A stretch of 64,000 bases of DNA, taken from positions 1,550,001-1,614,000 of the forward strand of contig NZ_JACBYQ010000001.1 of NCBI RefSeq assembly GCF_013408295.1, written 5' to 3'. Below are positions 37,762 through 43,972 of the stretch, piece by piece. The translations under genes and the position numbers were made by a program. A model generated the notes under the pieces. That model ran no database searches. It saw only the letters and a list, made by a program, of their open reading frames with translations, and had not been told where the DNA came from. How positions within the stretch are numbered: the first letter of the stretch is position 1; each line of letters starts with the position of its first letter. The DNA is from Psychromicrobium silvestre (GTDB lineage: Bacteria > Actinomycetota > Actinomycetes > Actinomycetales > Micrococcaceae).

Positions 37762-38002
37762 GAGGGATCCTTCCACAGACCTTCAGGCTACTGCGTCTCT
37801 GCACTACCTCTGCGTACTCTATTCAGACACAGAGCACGACAAGCCCACCGCTATATGAAGGCTGAGGGTAAACAGGAAAGACGCGAATTTCTAATCTACT
37901 CCCTCAGACCAAATTTGTCTAGCCTGTCAGAGTACGCCCACAGGCACAGCAAAGCAAGGCTTTGGCGTCCGAGGCTTCAGCAGGTGGAGCATGCCGCCCC
38001 CT

Positions 38003-39322
38003 CTAAGGCATCGTGACGGTGGGACTCCACTTCTTCAAACCATGCAGCGAGGTCCCATAGTAGATCTTGTGACCATTACATGAATCTGATGACATTCCAG
38101 AGATGATGCCATAGGCGGTAACGCCACCTCCAGCGGCACCCGCACCGGTGCTCCACCGGAGTCACCGTGGTCAAATCCTGAACAGTCATAGGAACCATCC
38201 AGATTCTGGTCCGAGGTCATGCTGAACATCTCGCAACTTATGATGCCGCTGCCATAGTTGACACAGGCGTCGACATCCAGCACTTTGTAGCGGCAGATCC
38301 GACTGGTGGTGTGTCCACTGGAGGACACTCCAGATCCGACAGTGGGGAAATTCCAGGAAACGTTGACAACATCCAAGGTGCTCTCGGAGTAAATATTCGA
38401 GTTGTAAACTCTCGAGATATAGGTAGATCCACCCAACAGGGCGAAATCTCCATAGGTATCCTAAGTGCCAACCCAAGTGGTGGTGTAGGGGCTACCCATG
38501 TAGGAGGAACCAGAAACCGAATACGCCTGAGCATAACTCGACTGGGTACCAGGCCTGCAGTGTCCTGCGGTCAATTCATAAGTCACATTGTTCAACCGCA
38601 CAGGAAACGCAGTAGAGCACACTCCTGCGGGCGAACTTGCTCCCCCCAGAGGCGTCGTACCAGTTGTACCCGGCACCGCTACGATGCGGAGCCACATCAT
38701 TGTCGCTGGAAGTCGGCCTAGCTTCCCCGATGTTCTCTCGGAAGACCACCGATCCCCATAGCTCAAGGCAATTTTTGCCACCGAGGCAGCGTTTCCAGAG
38801 CCTGATTGCTCGGACCCCAGTCCGACTCCAACCACCACTGCATCCTGCGAGGGGTCGATACTCACGGAATTTACCTCGTCAGCATGCTGCAGCAGGTAGT
38901 TCTTGACAATTGATGACTTGATCTCCTCAAGTTTGGTGAATGAATAGCCTGCCGGAACCAAGCGAGTCAGCGTCGCTCCAGGATCCAAAATCGCTAAAGG
39001 CGCTTTGAGTGTGGCAACGAACCCTTGCCCCTGGTCAGTCACTCCGATATTAAGCAGTCTTGAGTCCGGGGAGAGATAGGTTCCTGAGAACACCGAGGGG
39101 AAGCGGGCCAGATAATCGTTGACCTTCTCACTCAGCTCAGTGAGCTGGGGACGGGCCTGACCTACAAAGCCCGTCAGCACGGATAGTTTGGGGGCCGGTA
39201 CGGAATCAGTCGAGGCACTCTTCCATGAACCCGCTGCAGCCAAGTTGCCGGAGAAGGAGAGCCATCACCTCTAGGCTGATTGCGAGAGATACGACGGACC
39301 TAAATTTAGCTCTGTTCTTCAT
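38003..39322 (-). pseudogene. Secreted chymotrypsin-like (S1) serine protease, disrupted
   Basis: The pieces of one protease are readable in order. A signal peptide starts at ATG 39322 (MKNRAKFRSVVSLAISL, frame 1). A shift near 39270 leads to LSFSGNLAAAGSWKSAS and an alpha-lytic-type propeptide. The catalytic His is in ELTAGHC. The frame hits an amber TAG at 38461-38463 between WVGT and DTYGDFALL, which carries the likely catalytic Asp. The same frame resumes with 38436-38150 and reaches the catalytic Ser in DHGDSGGAP. A one-base shift near 38139-38146 then yields VTAYGIISGMSSDSCNGHK and a stop at 38003. Two frameshifts plus one stop indicate decay. Confidence 0.8.
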
Positions 39323-40122
39323 GACAACTGTCCCCATCACCGATTGCTTATAGGTCGATGTAAAGAAAAGCTTCGTTCGGAGGGGGCGTCCTAGCGACCG
39401 CCCGCCACATCTTGAAGAGGATGTGGAAACGTCAGAAGTCGACGGCAATTCTCATCAGCTTGGTGAGCAACTCGCCTCCTTCCCATTTGTCACTCCACAC
39501 CCAAGGAAGACCCTGGCTGCAAGTGATTCATGGGCTCTTAGCAAGAGATAGCACTCCACATGCGTGTAAAACCATGATTTTTTTGGACCTAGAAGACTCT
39601 CGCCAAGCCTACAACTGATGGGAGTCGTTGGGTCGTCTCCCCTTTCCAGCACATAGCGCAGCAGAAGACCGCTTGACCTGTCGAACCACAGGTTCAAGCG
39701 GAAGGCGCCAAACTCTGCAGGTCAGCCCCTGACACCTCGATTTTAAAGGACTGGCTATTGAACTTCCTGTTGCATTGCAGTCTCAAGGTATTGCTACCGA
39801 GCCATGCAGCCACAACGCCACACTTACCGCGCCTGTGTGCCCGATATCGCCAAAATGTGCCATTAAACACCTGTCGATCAGTCGGTGCTCAGAGAATCGG
39901 CAAAACTTCCAATCACCTCTAAAAACTTCCAGTTGAGCGGCCGTCACTACTATTTCAAATGACTCACCCTTCTAGGAACTTTCTCGACGAACATCCGCAG
40001 CAGGAATCTAAGACCAGTACGCCCATATCCGTCATCCTGCCATTTATCACAATAAGACGCCATCTAAAGAAATTAAGAAAACAAGTGAAGTCCAGTGATA
40101 AGCTGAACGATAATCCTCTTTA
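39323..40122. other. Non-coding, AT-richer region between protease remnant and ALF module
   Basis: 800 bp without a supportable gene. Short open frames at 39412-39618 and 39455-39697 lack ribosome sites and recognisable domains. From about 39900 the base composition is clearly lower in GC than the flanks. It contains the left member of the inverted-repeat pair at 39902-39931. Confidence 0.5.
39902..39931. repeat. Left member of an inverted-repeat pair bracketing the ALF module
   Basis: AAAACTTCCAATCACCTC then TAAAAACTTCCA. Its reverse complement resembles 43678-43714, where TTGGAAGT occurs three times. The two sites lie outside the ALF-protein/small-membrane-protein pair and face each other. 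Confidence 0.55.
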
Positions 40123-40311
40123 TCATAATATTTGATTCGAAAAAAAACTCAATAAAAGCATCGTCACCGCCACAATATTCGCCAAAACCAGCAAAATGTT
40201 TCTCAAGTTAAGTCCCGGCTTGGGGCTCTCTTTTTCTCTTTGGATGATATAGACACTCAGGGATAGGATGGTCAATCCACCAACTAATAGGAGTAAGGAA
40301 TTTGATGTCAT
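40123..40311 (-). CDS. Small two-helix membrane protein coupled to the ALF-repeat protein
   Basis: 62 residues from the ATG at 40311-40309, which overlaps the stop of the preceding gene as TAATG; GGGGA lies upstream. An in-frame ATG at 40344 would give 73 residues, but coupling favours the shorter form. Helix 1 (LLLLVGGLTILSLSVYII) and helix 2 (ILLVLANIVAVTMLLLSFF) flank a short basic loop (QREKESPKPGLNLRN). I recognise no family. Size, membrane location and stop-start coupling to a large exported protein with a hydrophobic C-terminus suggest a partner, chaperone or immunity protein; this is inference. Low GC. Confidence 0.65.
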   Translation of the reverse strand: MTSNSLLLLVGGLTILSLSVYIIQREKESPKPGLNLRNILLVLANIVAVTMLLLSFFSNQIL

Positions 40312-43300
40312 TATTTCCCCGCCGCCCACTTGCAGCTCAGCCAACTTAAACCTCCGTAGAATGTAGCGAATCCGCCGGTCACTGCAAAGAACGCCCCCAG
40401 CGGCAAGTCGGCCGGTATCGTTATCCCCCCTAGAGCCAGAGCAGCCATTAGCACAGCGATCCCTCCCGCAGTAACCATGAAAGCGCCAGCCAAGTCAGTA
40501 GACAAGCCACACACAAAACTTGTGTATTCATGAAACGCGTCTGAGACCACTTTCCCAACACCCAATACAAAGTCAATGAATCCATCATTCCGATCGGAAC
40601 CTTCACGAATTCCAGCCGTCAGAGATGGCATTGAATTGCTTATCGATGAAGCGAGTTTAATACGAAAGTCCTCTCGCTCCACCATATTTTGGGTCGCGCG
40701 TTCTTTGCTAGTGGCCGCTGCAAGCGATTGAGTCGCAGCTATTGCAGCTATCGACGCCTGCTCCCCACCGGCACTAGCCGATATCTGGGCTGCACTCGCA
40801 GCACCAGCCGCATTTGCGGCGGCACCTTGAGACCACAGAGCGGAGGCCTGGGCATTTGCTGACCGTTCAGCTGCTCCTGCCGCAGCGGTCTTCGCTTGAA
40901 TCGTCGCGTTATTCGCCGTAGCTGCAGCCGTGTTGGCAAGATTAGCCGACTGCTGGGCCTGATTCGCAGATTTCACAGCATTGTCCGCGAAGGTTTTCGC
41001 CTGACCTGCATACTTTGTTGCGTCTGCTGCGTATTTTTGCGCGTCAGCCGCCGCTTTGCGCGCCGTAGCTGCGACTTGCTGCGCTGTCGCTGCATTGGCC
41101 CTGGCAGTAGCTGCATCGGCATCAGCCTTCTCAATCAGGCCATTGATGCTGGCGACATGAGCCGCAGTCTGCTGATCTCGAGTAGCCGCCTCGAACTGGC
41201 CAAATGCCAGGAAGCTCGATACGTAGCTCTGCGGGCCCTCCAACGCCACTTCTGCAGCGGCCCTCACCTCGGGCCCAGCAGTTGCAAGCATGTTATAAAC
41301 CGTCTTGCGATCATCCACCTGGGCTGCAACGTACTGATCCTTTTGGAGGAAAGTTCGAGTTGCTTCCAAAGTATCAGCATCTAGAGCGGCCTGGGCGGCT
41401 TTCTTCATCTCGCTGCCACCTGTTTCCAGAAGCTTGTAGACCTGTTTCCGGTCATCCGTCGCGGTCAGATTCCAGCGATCCGCACTGAGGAACTGATGGA
41501 TAGCGGCAGCATTCTGATTCAAGACATTAGCCGCCGGGGTTTTGAGTGTGTCGGGACCGGTATGAGCGAGTTCATAGGCTTGATCCCATTCATCCTGCTC
41601 ACTAGCGATTTGGTAGCCGTGCACAATGAATTCCTTCATCATTTCTGGCGTGCTCCCGATAGCCTGCTGCGCAGCAGCTTTAGCCCAAGGCCCGGCGGTT
41701 TCCATCACCCCAAAGACGGCCTTCTTCACATCACCCAGTTGACTATCGAGGTCAGCACCCGGTGCAGTGAGTTCAGTCAGCAACTCCTTGGTGGTTGCCG
41801 CAGCAGCTGTTGCTTGAGCAGACTCCTCATCTTGTGCTTTTTGCTGTTCTGCTGCGATTTGCGCATCTTCTCTAGCCTGCGCCAATTGGAATTCCTTCTC
41901 AGCTGCCAACCGATCGGTGTCAGCCTGACGCGCGAGAGCTTGAACGACCCGCGCTTTATCGACTGCCGCGGTGGCGATATTTGCGGCAGTGGTTGCAGCG
42001 TTCGCATATTGTGTCGACTTTGTCGCGGCGGTAGCAGCATTTCCAGCCTGGGATGCTGCGGTATCGGCAGCAGTAGCGGCCGCGTTGGCATGCGTCACCG
42101 CGTCCAGCGCCGAGGTTTTCGCAATATTTGCCTGGGTGGTGGCCTGATCTGCCAGAGAGTTCACCGCCGCAGCAGCAGATGCAGCTCGATTTGCGGCTGC
42201 GTTGGCTCGGGCAGCAGCAGCATTGGCAAGGGCTGCTTGCTCACTAGAAACACCTGCTTCTCCAGCCGCAGCTGCAGCAGCCGAAGCGGCACCTGCAGCG
42301 TTCTGTCCGGCACTCGCAGCGGAGGCAGCAGCCGATTTCGAAGCATCCACAGCGGTGATGGCATCTGCAGCAGCGGCAGCAGCGCTGGACGCGCCTGCCG
42401 CCGCAGATCTAGCATTCACGGCGGCGGTCCTAGCCGCAGCCGCTTTACCGGCGTCGGTCGCCGCAGCTGCTGCAGCCCACTGCGCAGAGGCCGCGGCCTG
42501 CTCGGTACGTACCGCAGCTGCAGCGGCATTGGCCGCCGCGTTGGCCGCCTGGGCGAGCGCCTCTCGAGCTTGCTGAGCCGCCGCAATTGCTACCTGAGTG
42601 GCCTTGACTGCTTGATTGGCCAATGATGCTGCCCGAGCTGCGGCCGCACTGGCTTTCTGTGCCGATCCTGAAGCTGCTTTTGCTTCGTTAGCCGCTTGCT
42701 GCGCTGCCTGCTTAGCAAGCTGCGCAGCTTTTACTGCCTGAGCCGATGCGCTCTTGGCCTTCTTGGTCAGAGCGATAGCCTGCTGCGAGGCGTTCTTAGC
42801 CTGAGTGGCTAGCTGTGTGACGGTGGCAGTCTCAGCGTCGTGCGCTGCGGCAACAAACTGTCCGTAACGCAGGAAATCTCCGACTGCTGTGGGCACATCC
42901 GAATCAAGGGCTGCATTCGCACCAGCAACCACACTCGGCGAAGAATTCAGCAAGGCATAAACAGCCTTACGCTGATCGGTGTTCTCCGCGACGGCCATAC
43001 CCGAATTAACAAACAGTTGGACTGCGGCATCCCCCGCATCCAAAGCGGCCTGAGCGGCCTTCTTCACGGTGTTCCCGCCCTCAACAGTTGCCGTGTAGGC
43101 AGTCTTACGGTCGTCCTCCAACCAAGCAGCCTTAAGACCGGTGGTGAGGAAAGTCTGCAGTGCCTGTAGTGAACCGTCGTTCAGAGCTGCCTCTGCTGCT
43201 GCTCCGGTCGATGATCGGCCCATTAGCGCCAGCTGAACCGTAATCGTCCGATAATCGGCTGCAATCGCAACATACTGACCGGTGCTGATGAACGCCTGAA

Positions 43301-43559
43301 GGGAGGCGTCGTCGCCAAGCAAAGCTTCCTTCGCAGCAGCCTTTGTGGCTGCCCCACCGTTGGCCCACAACTGCACGACCCCTTGGCGATCAGTTGCCGG
43401 CGTGAGTAACCCTGATGAGGTCTCTGTTGCCGCAGCCGAGGGAACCGCCGAAAAGGCCGGAACAAACCCCGCGATCAGCGCAATAGCCAAAACCAGGCCA
43501 AAGAAAAGTTGAGCCACAGGCCTCAAGCGGCGATTGGCGATTTGGACATGACGACTCAC
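40311..43559 (-). CDS. Large exported ALF-repeat, alanine-rich coiled protein with hydrophobic C-terminus
   Basis: 1082 residues from GTG at 43559 (GGGGA upstream). A signal peptide covers about residues 14-40 (FFGLVLAIALIAGFVPAFSA). Residues about 55-255 hold ALF-type repeats of roughly 40-45 residues (AAxxAL..G....xxFLxxGxxxAxxxDxRxxxY). About 255-560 is an Ala-rich coil with dense AAxxA spacing. A second ALF array (about 590-780; for example DDRKTVYNMLATAGPEV) and a second Ala-rich coil (to about 950) follow. The last 120 residues differ: a polar part (FRIKLASSISNSMPSLTAG), then two hydrophobic helices with Gly zippers and Cys on either side. ALF-repeat proteins occur in Streptomyces with varied C-termini. 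Function unknown; a surface effector or contact-dependent toxin is one hypothesis. Confidence 0.8.
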   Translation of the reverse strand: MSRHVQIANRRLRPVAQLFFGLVLAIALIAGFVPAFSAVPSAAATETSSGLLTPATDRQGVVQLWANGGAATKAAAKEALLGDDASLQAFISTGQYVAIAADYRTITVQLALMGRSSTGAAAEAALNDGSLQALQTFLTTGLKAAWLEDDRKTAYTATVEGGNTVKKAAQAALDAGDAAVQLFVNSGMAVAENTDQRKAVYALLNSSPSVVAGANAALDSDVPTAVGDFLRYGQFVAAAHDAETATVTQLATQAKNASQQAIALTKKAKSASAQAVKAAQLAKQAAQQAANEAKAASGSAQKASAAAARAASLANQAVKATQVAIAAAQQAREALAQAANAAANAAAAAVRTEQAAASAQWAAAAAATDAGKAAAARTAAVNARSAAAGASSAAAAAADAITAVDASKSAAASAASAGQNAAGAASAAAAAAGEAGVSSEQAALANAAAARANAAANRAASAAAAVNSLADQATTQANIAKTSALDAVTHANAAATAADTAASQAGNAATAATKSTQYANAATTAANIATAAVDKARVVQALARQADTDRLAAEKEFQLAQAREDAQIAAEQQKAQDEESAQATAAAATTKELLTELTAPGADLDSQLGDVKKAVFGVMETAGPWAKAAAQQAIGSTPEMMKEFIVHGYQIASEQDEWDQAYELAHTGPDTLKTPAANVLNQNAAAIHQFLSADRWNLTATDDRKQVYKLLETGGSEMKKAAQAALDADTLEATRTFLQKDQYVAAQVDDRKTVYNMLATAGPEVRAAAEVALEGPQSYVSSFLAFGQFEAATRDQQTAAHVASINGLIEKADADAATARANAATAQQVAATARKAAADAQKYAADATKYAGQAKTFADNAVKSANQAQQSANLANTAAATANNATIQAKTAAAGAAERSANAQASALWSQGAAANAAGAASAAQISASAGGEQASIAAIAATQSLAAATSKERATQNMVEREDFRIKLASSISNSMPSLTAGIREGSDRNDGFIDFVLGVGKVVSDAFHEYTSFVCGLSTDLAGAFMVTAGGIAVLMAALALGGITIPADLPLGAFFAVTGGFATFYGGLSWLSCKWAAGK

Positions 43560-43972
43560 AAGAGTCCCCCATCTATAAGGAAGTTCGAGCAACGGAAGGA
43601 AGCGGCTACCGATGCGAAGGCGGCCAACTTTGTCTGTGACAAGTCTGTCAGCCCAAATCGGGTTCTCATAGCAATCTCATTGGAAGTTTTATTGGAAGTC
43701 ATTGGAAGTTTTCGAGAAACCAGCTCTTCTTCGAAGACAGCTTCGCCAGTTGTCGCTCGCTGTATTTTGGTTGCGCCAACTCCTTCAGCCGAAATTACCC
43801 AGTGTCCGACCTCTGGAGGGACGCCTCACCTCTCTCCCATCGAAGTGTCCGAATCCAACCCGATAACGGGAGGTCCTCTGTTAGGGAACAAGCAGCGACT
43901 AGGATGTGTTTTAAGTTACAGTTCGTTAACCGAGTATCAATTATTGAGCCAATCTCAAGCAGAGGATTCCCG
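43560..43972. promoter_or_regulatory. Divergent region between ALF module and thiolase
   Basis: 413 bp between divergent starts, so it should contain both promoters. It holds the TTGGAAGT repeat cluster at 43678-43714. I find no convincing gene; frames that extend the thiolase upstream lack a ribosome site, whereas ATG 43973 has AGAGGA. Confidence 0.45.
43678..43714. repeat. Right member of the inverted-repeat pair: three TTGGAAGT copies
   Basis: ATTGGAAGTTTT, ATTGGAAGTC and ATTGGAAGTTTT lie in tandem within 37 bp, about 120 bp upstream of the ALF-protein start. The reverse complement aligns with 39902-39931. It could be an iteron-like regulator site or an element end. Confidence 0.6.

Follow-up and report, generated by a model that had tools for sequence, protein, structure and literature searches.

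A putative umbrella-toxin locus with a hydrophobic UmbC tail and a 62-residue membrane partner in Psychromicrobium silvestre

We analysed a 64,000-nucleotide stretch of the Psychromicrobium silvestre genome (assembly GCF_013408295.1, contig NZ_JACBYQ010000001.1, positions 1,550,001–1,614,000; hereafter, the window), in which a long gene for an exported protein with ALF repeats overlaps a gene for a 62-residue membrane protein. The pair probably encodes the UmbC toxin subunit of an umbrella particle, ending in a membrane-damaging tail, together with its cognate membrane immunity protein (probability of about 0.74). The carrier is homologous to UmbC, genes for UmbA and UmbB lie elsewhere in the genome, the tail varies among relatives, the two genes overlap, and in a wider survey membrane-type tails were associated with small membrane neighbours.

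The carrier is homologous to UmbC

Residues 24–946 of the 1082-residue protein matched 8w20_A (E = 1.1e-83, approximately 920 residues), a chain of the umbrella-particle structure 8W20, whose deposition with PMC11062931 was confirmed. Because of this match, the protein is by homology UmbC, a characterised carrier, rather than an unknown ALF giant. A sequence-only reading of the window had correctly seen an ALF giant and left the system unnamed; its 1082 residues, two ALF blocks and two Ala-rich coils were borne out by the reading frame and by Pfam. ALF was the sole Pfam family found in the protein, in seven stretches (E = 6.7e-47), four of them within residues 58–237 and three within 613–791. 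An eighth repeat was assigned by position, the Pfam gap in the second block falling at the place of ALF6, which in UmbC1 is not bound by UmbB according to PMC11062931. Each block precedes one long Ala-rich coil, the two coils being judged by composition. At the N-terminus, an RR pair followed by a hydrophobic stretch was visible, with no match to an NCBIfam twin-arginine (TAT) family, and an in-frame TTG at 43592 offers an alternative start that would add 11 residues.

The alignment of 11 UmbC proteins (the window protein and 10 others) was conserved to approximately residue 956 and divergent beyond. The umbrella particle, a protein weapon of actinobacteria, was reported from Streptomyces in 2024, with UmbC as a polymorphic toxin carrier that has a swapped tail, classed into 77 toxin families, and an immunity gene directly downstream (PMC11062931), and ALF repeats had already been listed in polymorphic toxins (PMC3482391). 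Two of the literature matches listed concern umbrella toxins, and a search found no paper pairing ‘umbrella particle’ with ‘Micrococcaceae’. Elsewhere in the genome (G000 in our numbering, in which G and L denote genomes and loci), a lone weak ALF match under the family cut-off was observed in a 285-aa frame (L055, G000:C2:1098936-1099025).

The variable tail and its 62-residue partner

The tail comprises the last ~127 residues (956–1082), with 19-residue Kyte–Doolittle peaks at 1026–1044 (2.09), 1042–1060 (1.52) and 1057–1075 (1.04). UmbC contains just two cysteines, C1017 and C1076, which flank the hydrophobic helices. The Cys-flanked two-helix tail of the sequence-only reading thus stands as to the cysteines, and its ‘two helices’ are approximate, one being strongly hydrophobic. 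AlphaFold2, given the final 140 residues and no relatives, placed helices at 947–986, 990–1016, 1022–1044 and 1054–1079 with a mean predicted local distance difference test (pLDDT) score of 55; this model fits a tail made of helices, and no finer detail can be drawn from it. A disulfide-held hairpin in the exported UmbC is possible, given the two cysteines.

The tail had no match at cut-off in Pfam, NCBIfam, PHROGs or the PDB; the earlier statement that no recognised toxin family is present holds within the libraries searched. At E ≤ 0.001 it was found in its own genome only, both among 375 family genomes and among 59 relatives, and no convincing relative appeared in plasmids (limit E = 1), viral contigs or genome contigs. 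In an order-level search of 396 genomes, weak matches at E ≤ 0.05 were observed in 31 genomes besides its own (best E = 3.4e-4), with 24–58% identity over short hydrophobic pieces of frames mostly 200–700 aa long. The one such locus with a long frame that was inspected (L067) was not ALF-like, and the weak matches, which beyond L067 were not studied individually, are read as hydrophobic composition. Overall, the tail is probably an umbrella toxin type without a match, acting on membranes.

The 62-residue protein has two clear hydrophobic segments, and its ATG overlaps the umbC stop codon as TAATG, both as the sequence-only reading had described. A Shine–Dalgarno-like GGGGA lies within the umbC 3' end, and an alternative in-frame TTG start would give a product of 73 aa. 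The G+C content falls from 59.5% in the umbC carrier to 51.1% in the tail and 38.6% in the small gene; a value as low as that of 40001–40500 was found in only 0.6% of 500-bp windows (step, 50). No family matched the 62-residue protein above cut-off (Pfam and NCBIfam included), so that the proposed profile searches returned no family for either product, and the proposed structure prediction, made for the tail alone, returned helices at the low score given above. Its gene occupies the usual immunity-gene position, directly downstream of umbC, and the protein is probably the immunity factor of the tail, a putative UmbD. If they are toxin and immunity protein, the 127-residue tail and the 62-residue partner constitute a very small pair for asking what immunity does.

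UmbC tails within the genus

ALF repeats were detected in five of the seven genomes of the genus, four of which encode an intact UmbC, the fifth copy (G002) being broken. Read by eye, the four intact proteins have different ends and are followed by different genes. In G006, an unrelated Gly-rich hydrophobic tail overlaps, again by TAATG, the gene of a 153-aa membrane protein (156 aa from an earlier start), followed by an orphan tail cassette that overlaps a 65-aa two-helix protein (L047:6445-7776). The G006 UmbC (L047) also has exactly two cysteines, which bracket its helices despite the unrelated tail sequence. At its upstream edge, the orphan cassette shares 43 residues with the G006 tail (hhalign probability, 87%), which is what an exchange of cassettes would be expected to leave. 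The tails of G004 and G005 are longer and have one related stretch in common, with different ends and with genes of 289 and 249 aa next to them, respectively.

The sequence-only reading had taken the coupling of tail and small protein to resemble an effector/immunity or effector/partner module and had proposed a neighbourhood comparison. That comparison gave differing genus tails adjoining different genes, with the arrangement of hydrophobic tail and membrane protein repeated in G006, and the module reading appears supported by architecture, namely the UmbC carrier with differing tails and next genes. The broken G002 UmbC (L044:5035-7981, minus strand) is split into two frames and has lost its tail, and its relatives keep intact copies.

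Survey of tails and neighbours

We surveyed 48 distinct complete UmbC tails from at least 39 pattern loci, from genus and family loci and from a few Streptomyces-type genomes. Tails of at most 200 aa with a transmembrane segment were classed as membrane-type (n = 20) and the remainder as other (n = 28); a small membrane neighbour was a protein of at most 200 aa with at least two transmembrane segments and a start within 260 bp. Such a neighbour followed 7 of the 20 membrane-type tails and none of the 28 others (one-sided Fisher p = 0.001, which overstates independence, the survey rows being related); with a coding-bias filter, the ratios were 6/20 and 0/28 (p = 0.003).

All membrane-type tails but those of the window and G006 were called 4TM tox, an assignment of 18 tails made from alignment and description, not from published sequences. 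UmbC2, which on our reading of a figure legend carries the 4TM tail, arrests S. griseus and is predicted by the authors to be pore-forming, and for the S. coelicolor 4TM-tox member no immunity protein is identified in the main text (PMC11062931). A search with one 4TM-type tail gave matches in 44 of the 382 genomes in the G980 genus. Among 30 4TM-tox homologues examined, a small membrane neighbour was present in 13, and these small proteins are candidate immunity proteins for that class (Table 1); of the small proteins listed there, the two tested (those of L115 and L126) had no Pfam match. At 8 of the 30 loci, a frame of at least 390 aa came next.

The tail was compared with the 4TM type in several ways. 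Against a profile of 18 4TM members, hhalign gave a probability of 1.3%, and against one of 48 members 6.2% (score 22.2, exceeded by 2 of 80 control segments); the 62-residue partner had a profile score of 12.0, the highest control score being 32.6 (n = 66). In single-sequence shuffles, the tail scored z = 4.0 when paired with that of L126, and the 62-residue protein scored z = 4.2 when paired with the L084 partner; these values were reached by 2 of 250 other membrane frames and 0 of 53 controls, respectively. We do not claim kinship of the tail to those of L126, L084 and L087, which are of the 4TM type: neither tail nor partner stood out from the controls in the profile tests, and the z-score hint remains. 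Hydropathy at a threshold of 1.3 gave two segments in the tail and one to three in 4TM-type tails, a measure that does not discriminate. None of the 18 4TM-type tails has more than one cysteine. The tail was not assigned to the 4TM tox family, and we think that it works like a member.

UmbA and UmbB in the genome

The umbB and umbA genes lie together at an unlinked locus ~420 kb from umbC. UmbB matched 8w20_B (E = 4.8e-13), and UmbA matched 8w20_C (E = 3.1e-34) and 9oee_A (E = 8.7e-36). UmbA has lectin-type RicinB and AbfB domains and a trypsin domain without the catalytic His, VASC standing where AHC, the usual His motif of trypsins, would be found. UmbA of the umbrella system is described as non-catalytic, with which the lost His agrees (PMC11062931). 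Judged by homology, all three subunits are thus represented in the genome, at split loci, and surveys requiring UmbB near UmbC would overlook it, since the genes are split. In G002, G005 and G006, an UmbB-like gene adjoins umbC and is divergent from it; the UmbB-like protein of G005 matched 8w20_B, the neighbouring UmbA matched 8w20_C in G006 (the only one tested), and that of G002 is in pieces.

An S1-type protease gene next to the locus (~38000–39400, minus strand) was considered as UmbA and rejected: no lectin domain was seen in its frames, its motifs around His, Asp and Ser can all be recognised, and the gene is interrupted by stops and a shift of frame. The pieces of this broken secreted protease (~37990–39400, minus strand) are 43% and 59% identical to a G005 protease (L113, still open where its locus ends), upstream of which a degenerate CTTCCA motif with two mismatches was found.

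A CTTCCA motif upstream of both umb loci

The direct repeat CTTCCA-N4-CTTCCA-N6-CTTCCA, whose copies start 10 and 12 bp apart, has a single site in the window and none in 100 shuffles. The genome contains eight sites, compared with none for the reversed pattern. They lie upstream of umbC, umbB-umbA and the genes of an RHS protein, a DUF2690 protein, a DsbA-like protein and a glycogen phosphorylase; the remaining sites precede genes of no clear family. G005 has 10 sites (L104–L113), one of them between umbB and umbC. The five remaining genus genomes lack the motif at up to two mismatches, although three of these have umbC (one broken). From this distribution, the motif looks like an operator, possibly one that holds expression of the split umb genes together in two species, and it likely controls a regulon of secreted and competition genes in two of the seven genomes. 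No regulator for it was found, and the motif string occurs in none of the literature matches listed. The authors of the umbrella-toxin work named umb regulation as an open question, on which a motif upstream of both split umb loci provides a lead.

The RHS gene (L101:7486-14777, minus strand) encodes an exported protein of 2254 aa with SLT and golvesin domains and is overlapped by a gene for a 176-aa membrane protein. These two are probably a second polymorphic toxin/immunity pair under the CTTCCA motif.

Table 1. Coordinates of the umb locus and related features (window positions unless a genome or locus is named)
Feature	Position	Strand	Remark
umbC	43559 (GTG) to 40311 (TAA)	minus	1082 aa
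umbC carrier, residues 1–955	40695..43559	minus	export signal, ALF1–4, coil 1, ALF5–8, coil 2
umbC variable C-terminal domain, residues 956–1082 and stop	40311..40694	minus	hydrophobic; putative membrane-damaging toxin
putative umbD, 62 aa, two-helix membrane protein	40123..40311	minus	putative immunity gene
three-copy CTTCCA direct-repeat motif	43681..43708	minus	~121 bp upstream of umbC GTG
umbC in genome coordinates	G000:C1:1590311-1593559		
umbB-umbA pair	G000:C1:1168685-1171001 (L090:8685-11001)		
CTTCCA motif sites in the genome	window 43681-43708 (minus); L090:8450; G000 C1:465464; C2:217161, 225899, 228000, 921476, 975107		
4TM-type loci with a small membrane protein (99–168 aa) directly downstream	L154, L159-L162, L164, L165, L167-L169, L171, L175, L183, L115, L126, L135		candidate immunity proteins

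Proposed mechanism and alternative explanations

We infer particle assembly, membrane insertion, toxicity and immunity as follows. UmbC would be exported from the producer, its eight ALF repeats forming a ring that binds UmbB adaptors; these would carry the UmbA lectin arms, made from the unlinked locus, while the two coils would serve as the stalk, with the variable tail at its tip. Once the lectins have bound a target cell, the tail would insert into its cytoplasmic membrane and dissipate the proton-motive force or form a pore. In the producer, the 62-residue two-helix protein would sit in the membrane and block the inserted tail.

Several points weigh against this account. Five of the seven positives in the survey are of the 4TM type, so that only three unrelated tail types carry the neighbour signal, and the tail classes were drawn after the list was seen. 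Small membrane genes are far from constant in the 4TM class: 13 of its 18 survey tails have none adjacent. The pairing on which the sequence-only reading had relied was in part missing in the nearest class, 17 of the 30 4TM-tox homologues being without a small membrane neighbour. Strong hydrophobicity is confined to one helix of the tail, the tail model is of low confidence, and no homologue of either the tail or the 62-residue protein was found, so that conservation is no test of either.

It is quite unlikely that the tail is a mere pre-toxin or translocation hairpin, left behind after loss of the actual toxin domain. At 127 aa the tail is short, and hydrophobic stretches do lie between coil and toxin domain in the UmbC of L079, L119, L134, L045, L046 and L088; however, the tail did not match those stretches when profiles were compared (probability <1%), 4TM-type tails are also short (159–190 aa) and protein-terminal, and the close TAATG overlap with a partner rich in A+T points to a native end that is intact. 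We consider it very unlikely that the tail and the 62-residue protein act jointly, as a two-component pore or co-toxin, or that the small protein aids particle release, which would make it a partner rather than an immunity protein. Both products are of the membrane type and the gene overlap suggests coupled translation, but the 62-residue protein has no visible export signal beyond its own two helices, whereas UmbC has a signal, and relatives in the genus carry quite different genes at this position. Least probable is a membrane anchor keeping the umbrella protein on the producer surface, with the 62-residue protein as an anchoring accessory: L048, L052 and L054 do have one hydrophobic helix at the C-terminus and RRKG after it, but they end differently from the tail and measure 674–699 aa, and the tail has more than one hydrophobic peak, no LPXTG-like end, the position of the variable domain in full-length UmbC proteins and a uniqueness to one of 375 family genomes that is not expected of an anchor. 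These three family proteins, with their single anchor-like end helix, belong to a different ALF class.

A toxin tail with a cognate immunity protein remains our preferred reading. It can be extended to a bolder picture, which we regard as unlikely, in which the tail would represent a new, minimal membrane-inserting class of umbrella toxin: a hydrophobic hairpin closed by a C1017–C1076 disulfide, soluble on the particle, set free for insertion on reaching the target cell or inside it, and countered in the producer membrane by the 62-residue hairpin, with the cysteine staple as a convergent rule and the split umb genes joined by a CTTCCA operator that also serves the RHS toxin.

Comparison with known systems

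The locus resembles the umbrella particles of Streptomyces coelicolor (PMC11062931, PMC13274773) in the architecture of UmbC, the variable tail, the presence of UmbA and UmbB homologues and a downstream gene in the umbD position; it differs in that its tail belongs to no matched family and its partner has merely 62 aa. With the 4TM tox of UmbC2 and its relatives, it has in common a short hydrophobic end tail and, as in some members, a small membrane gene downstream, whereas the absence of a profile match, the two bracketing cysteines and the smaller partner set it apart. Pore-forming or ionophore toxins of contact-dependent inhibition (CDI) systems and colicins likewise combine a membrane-acting C-terminal domain with a small membrane immunity protein, on carriers and by delivery routes that differ from those of UmbC.

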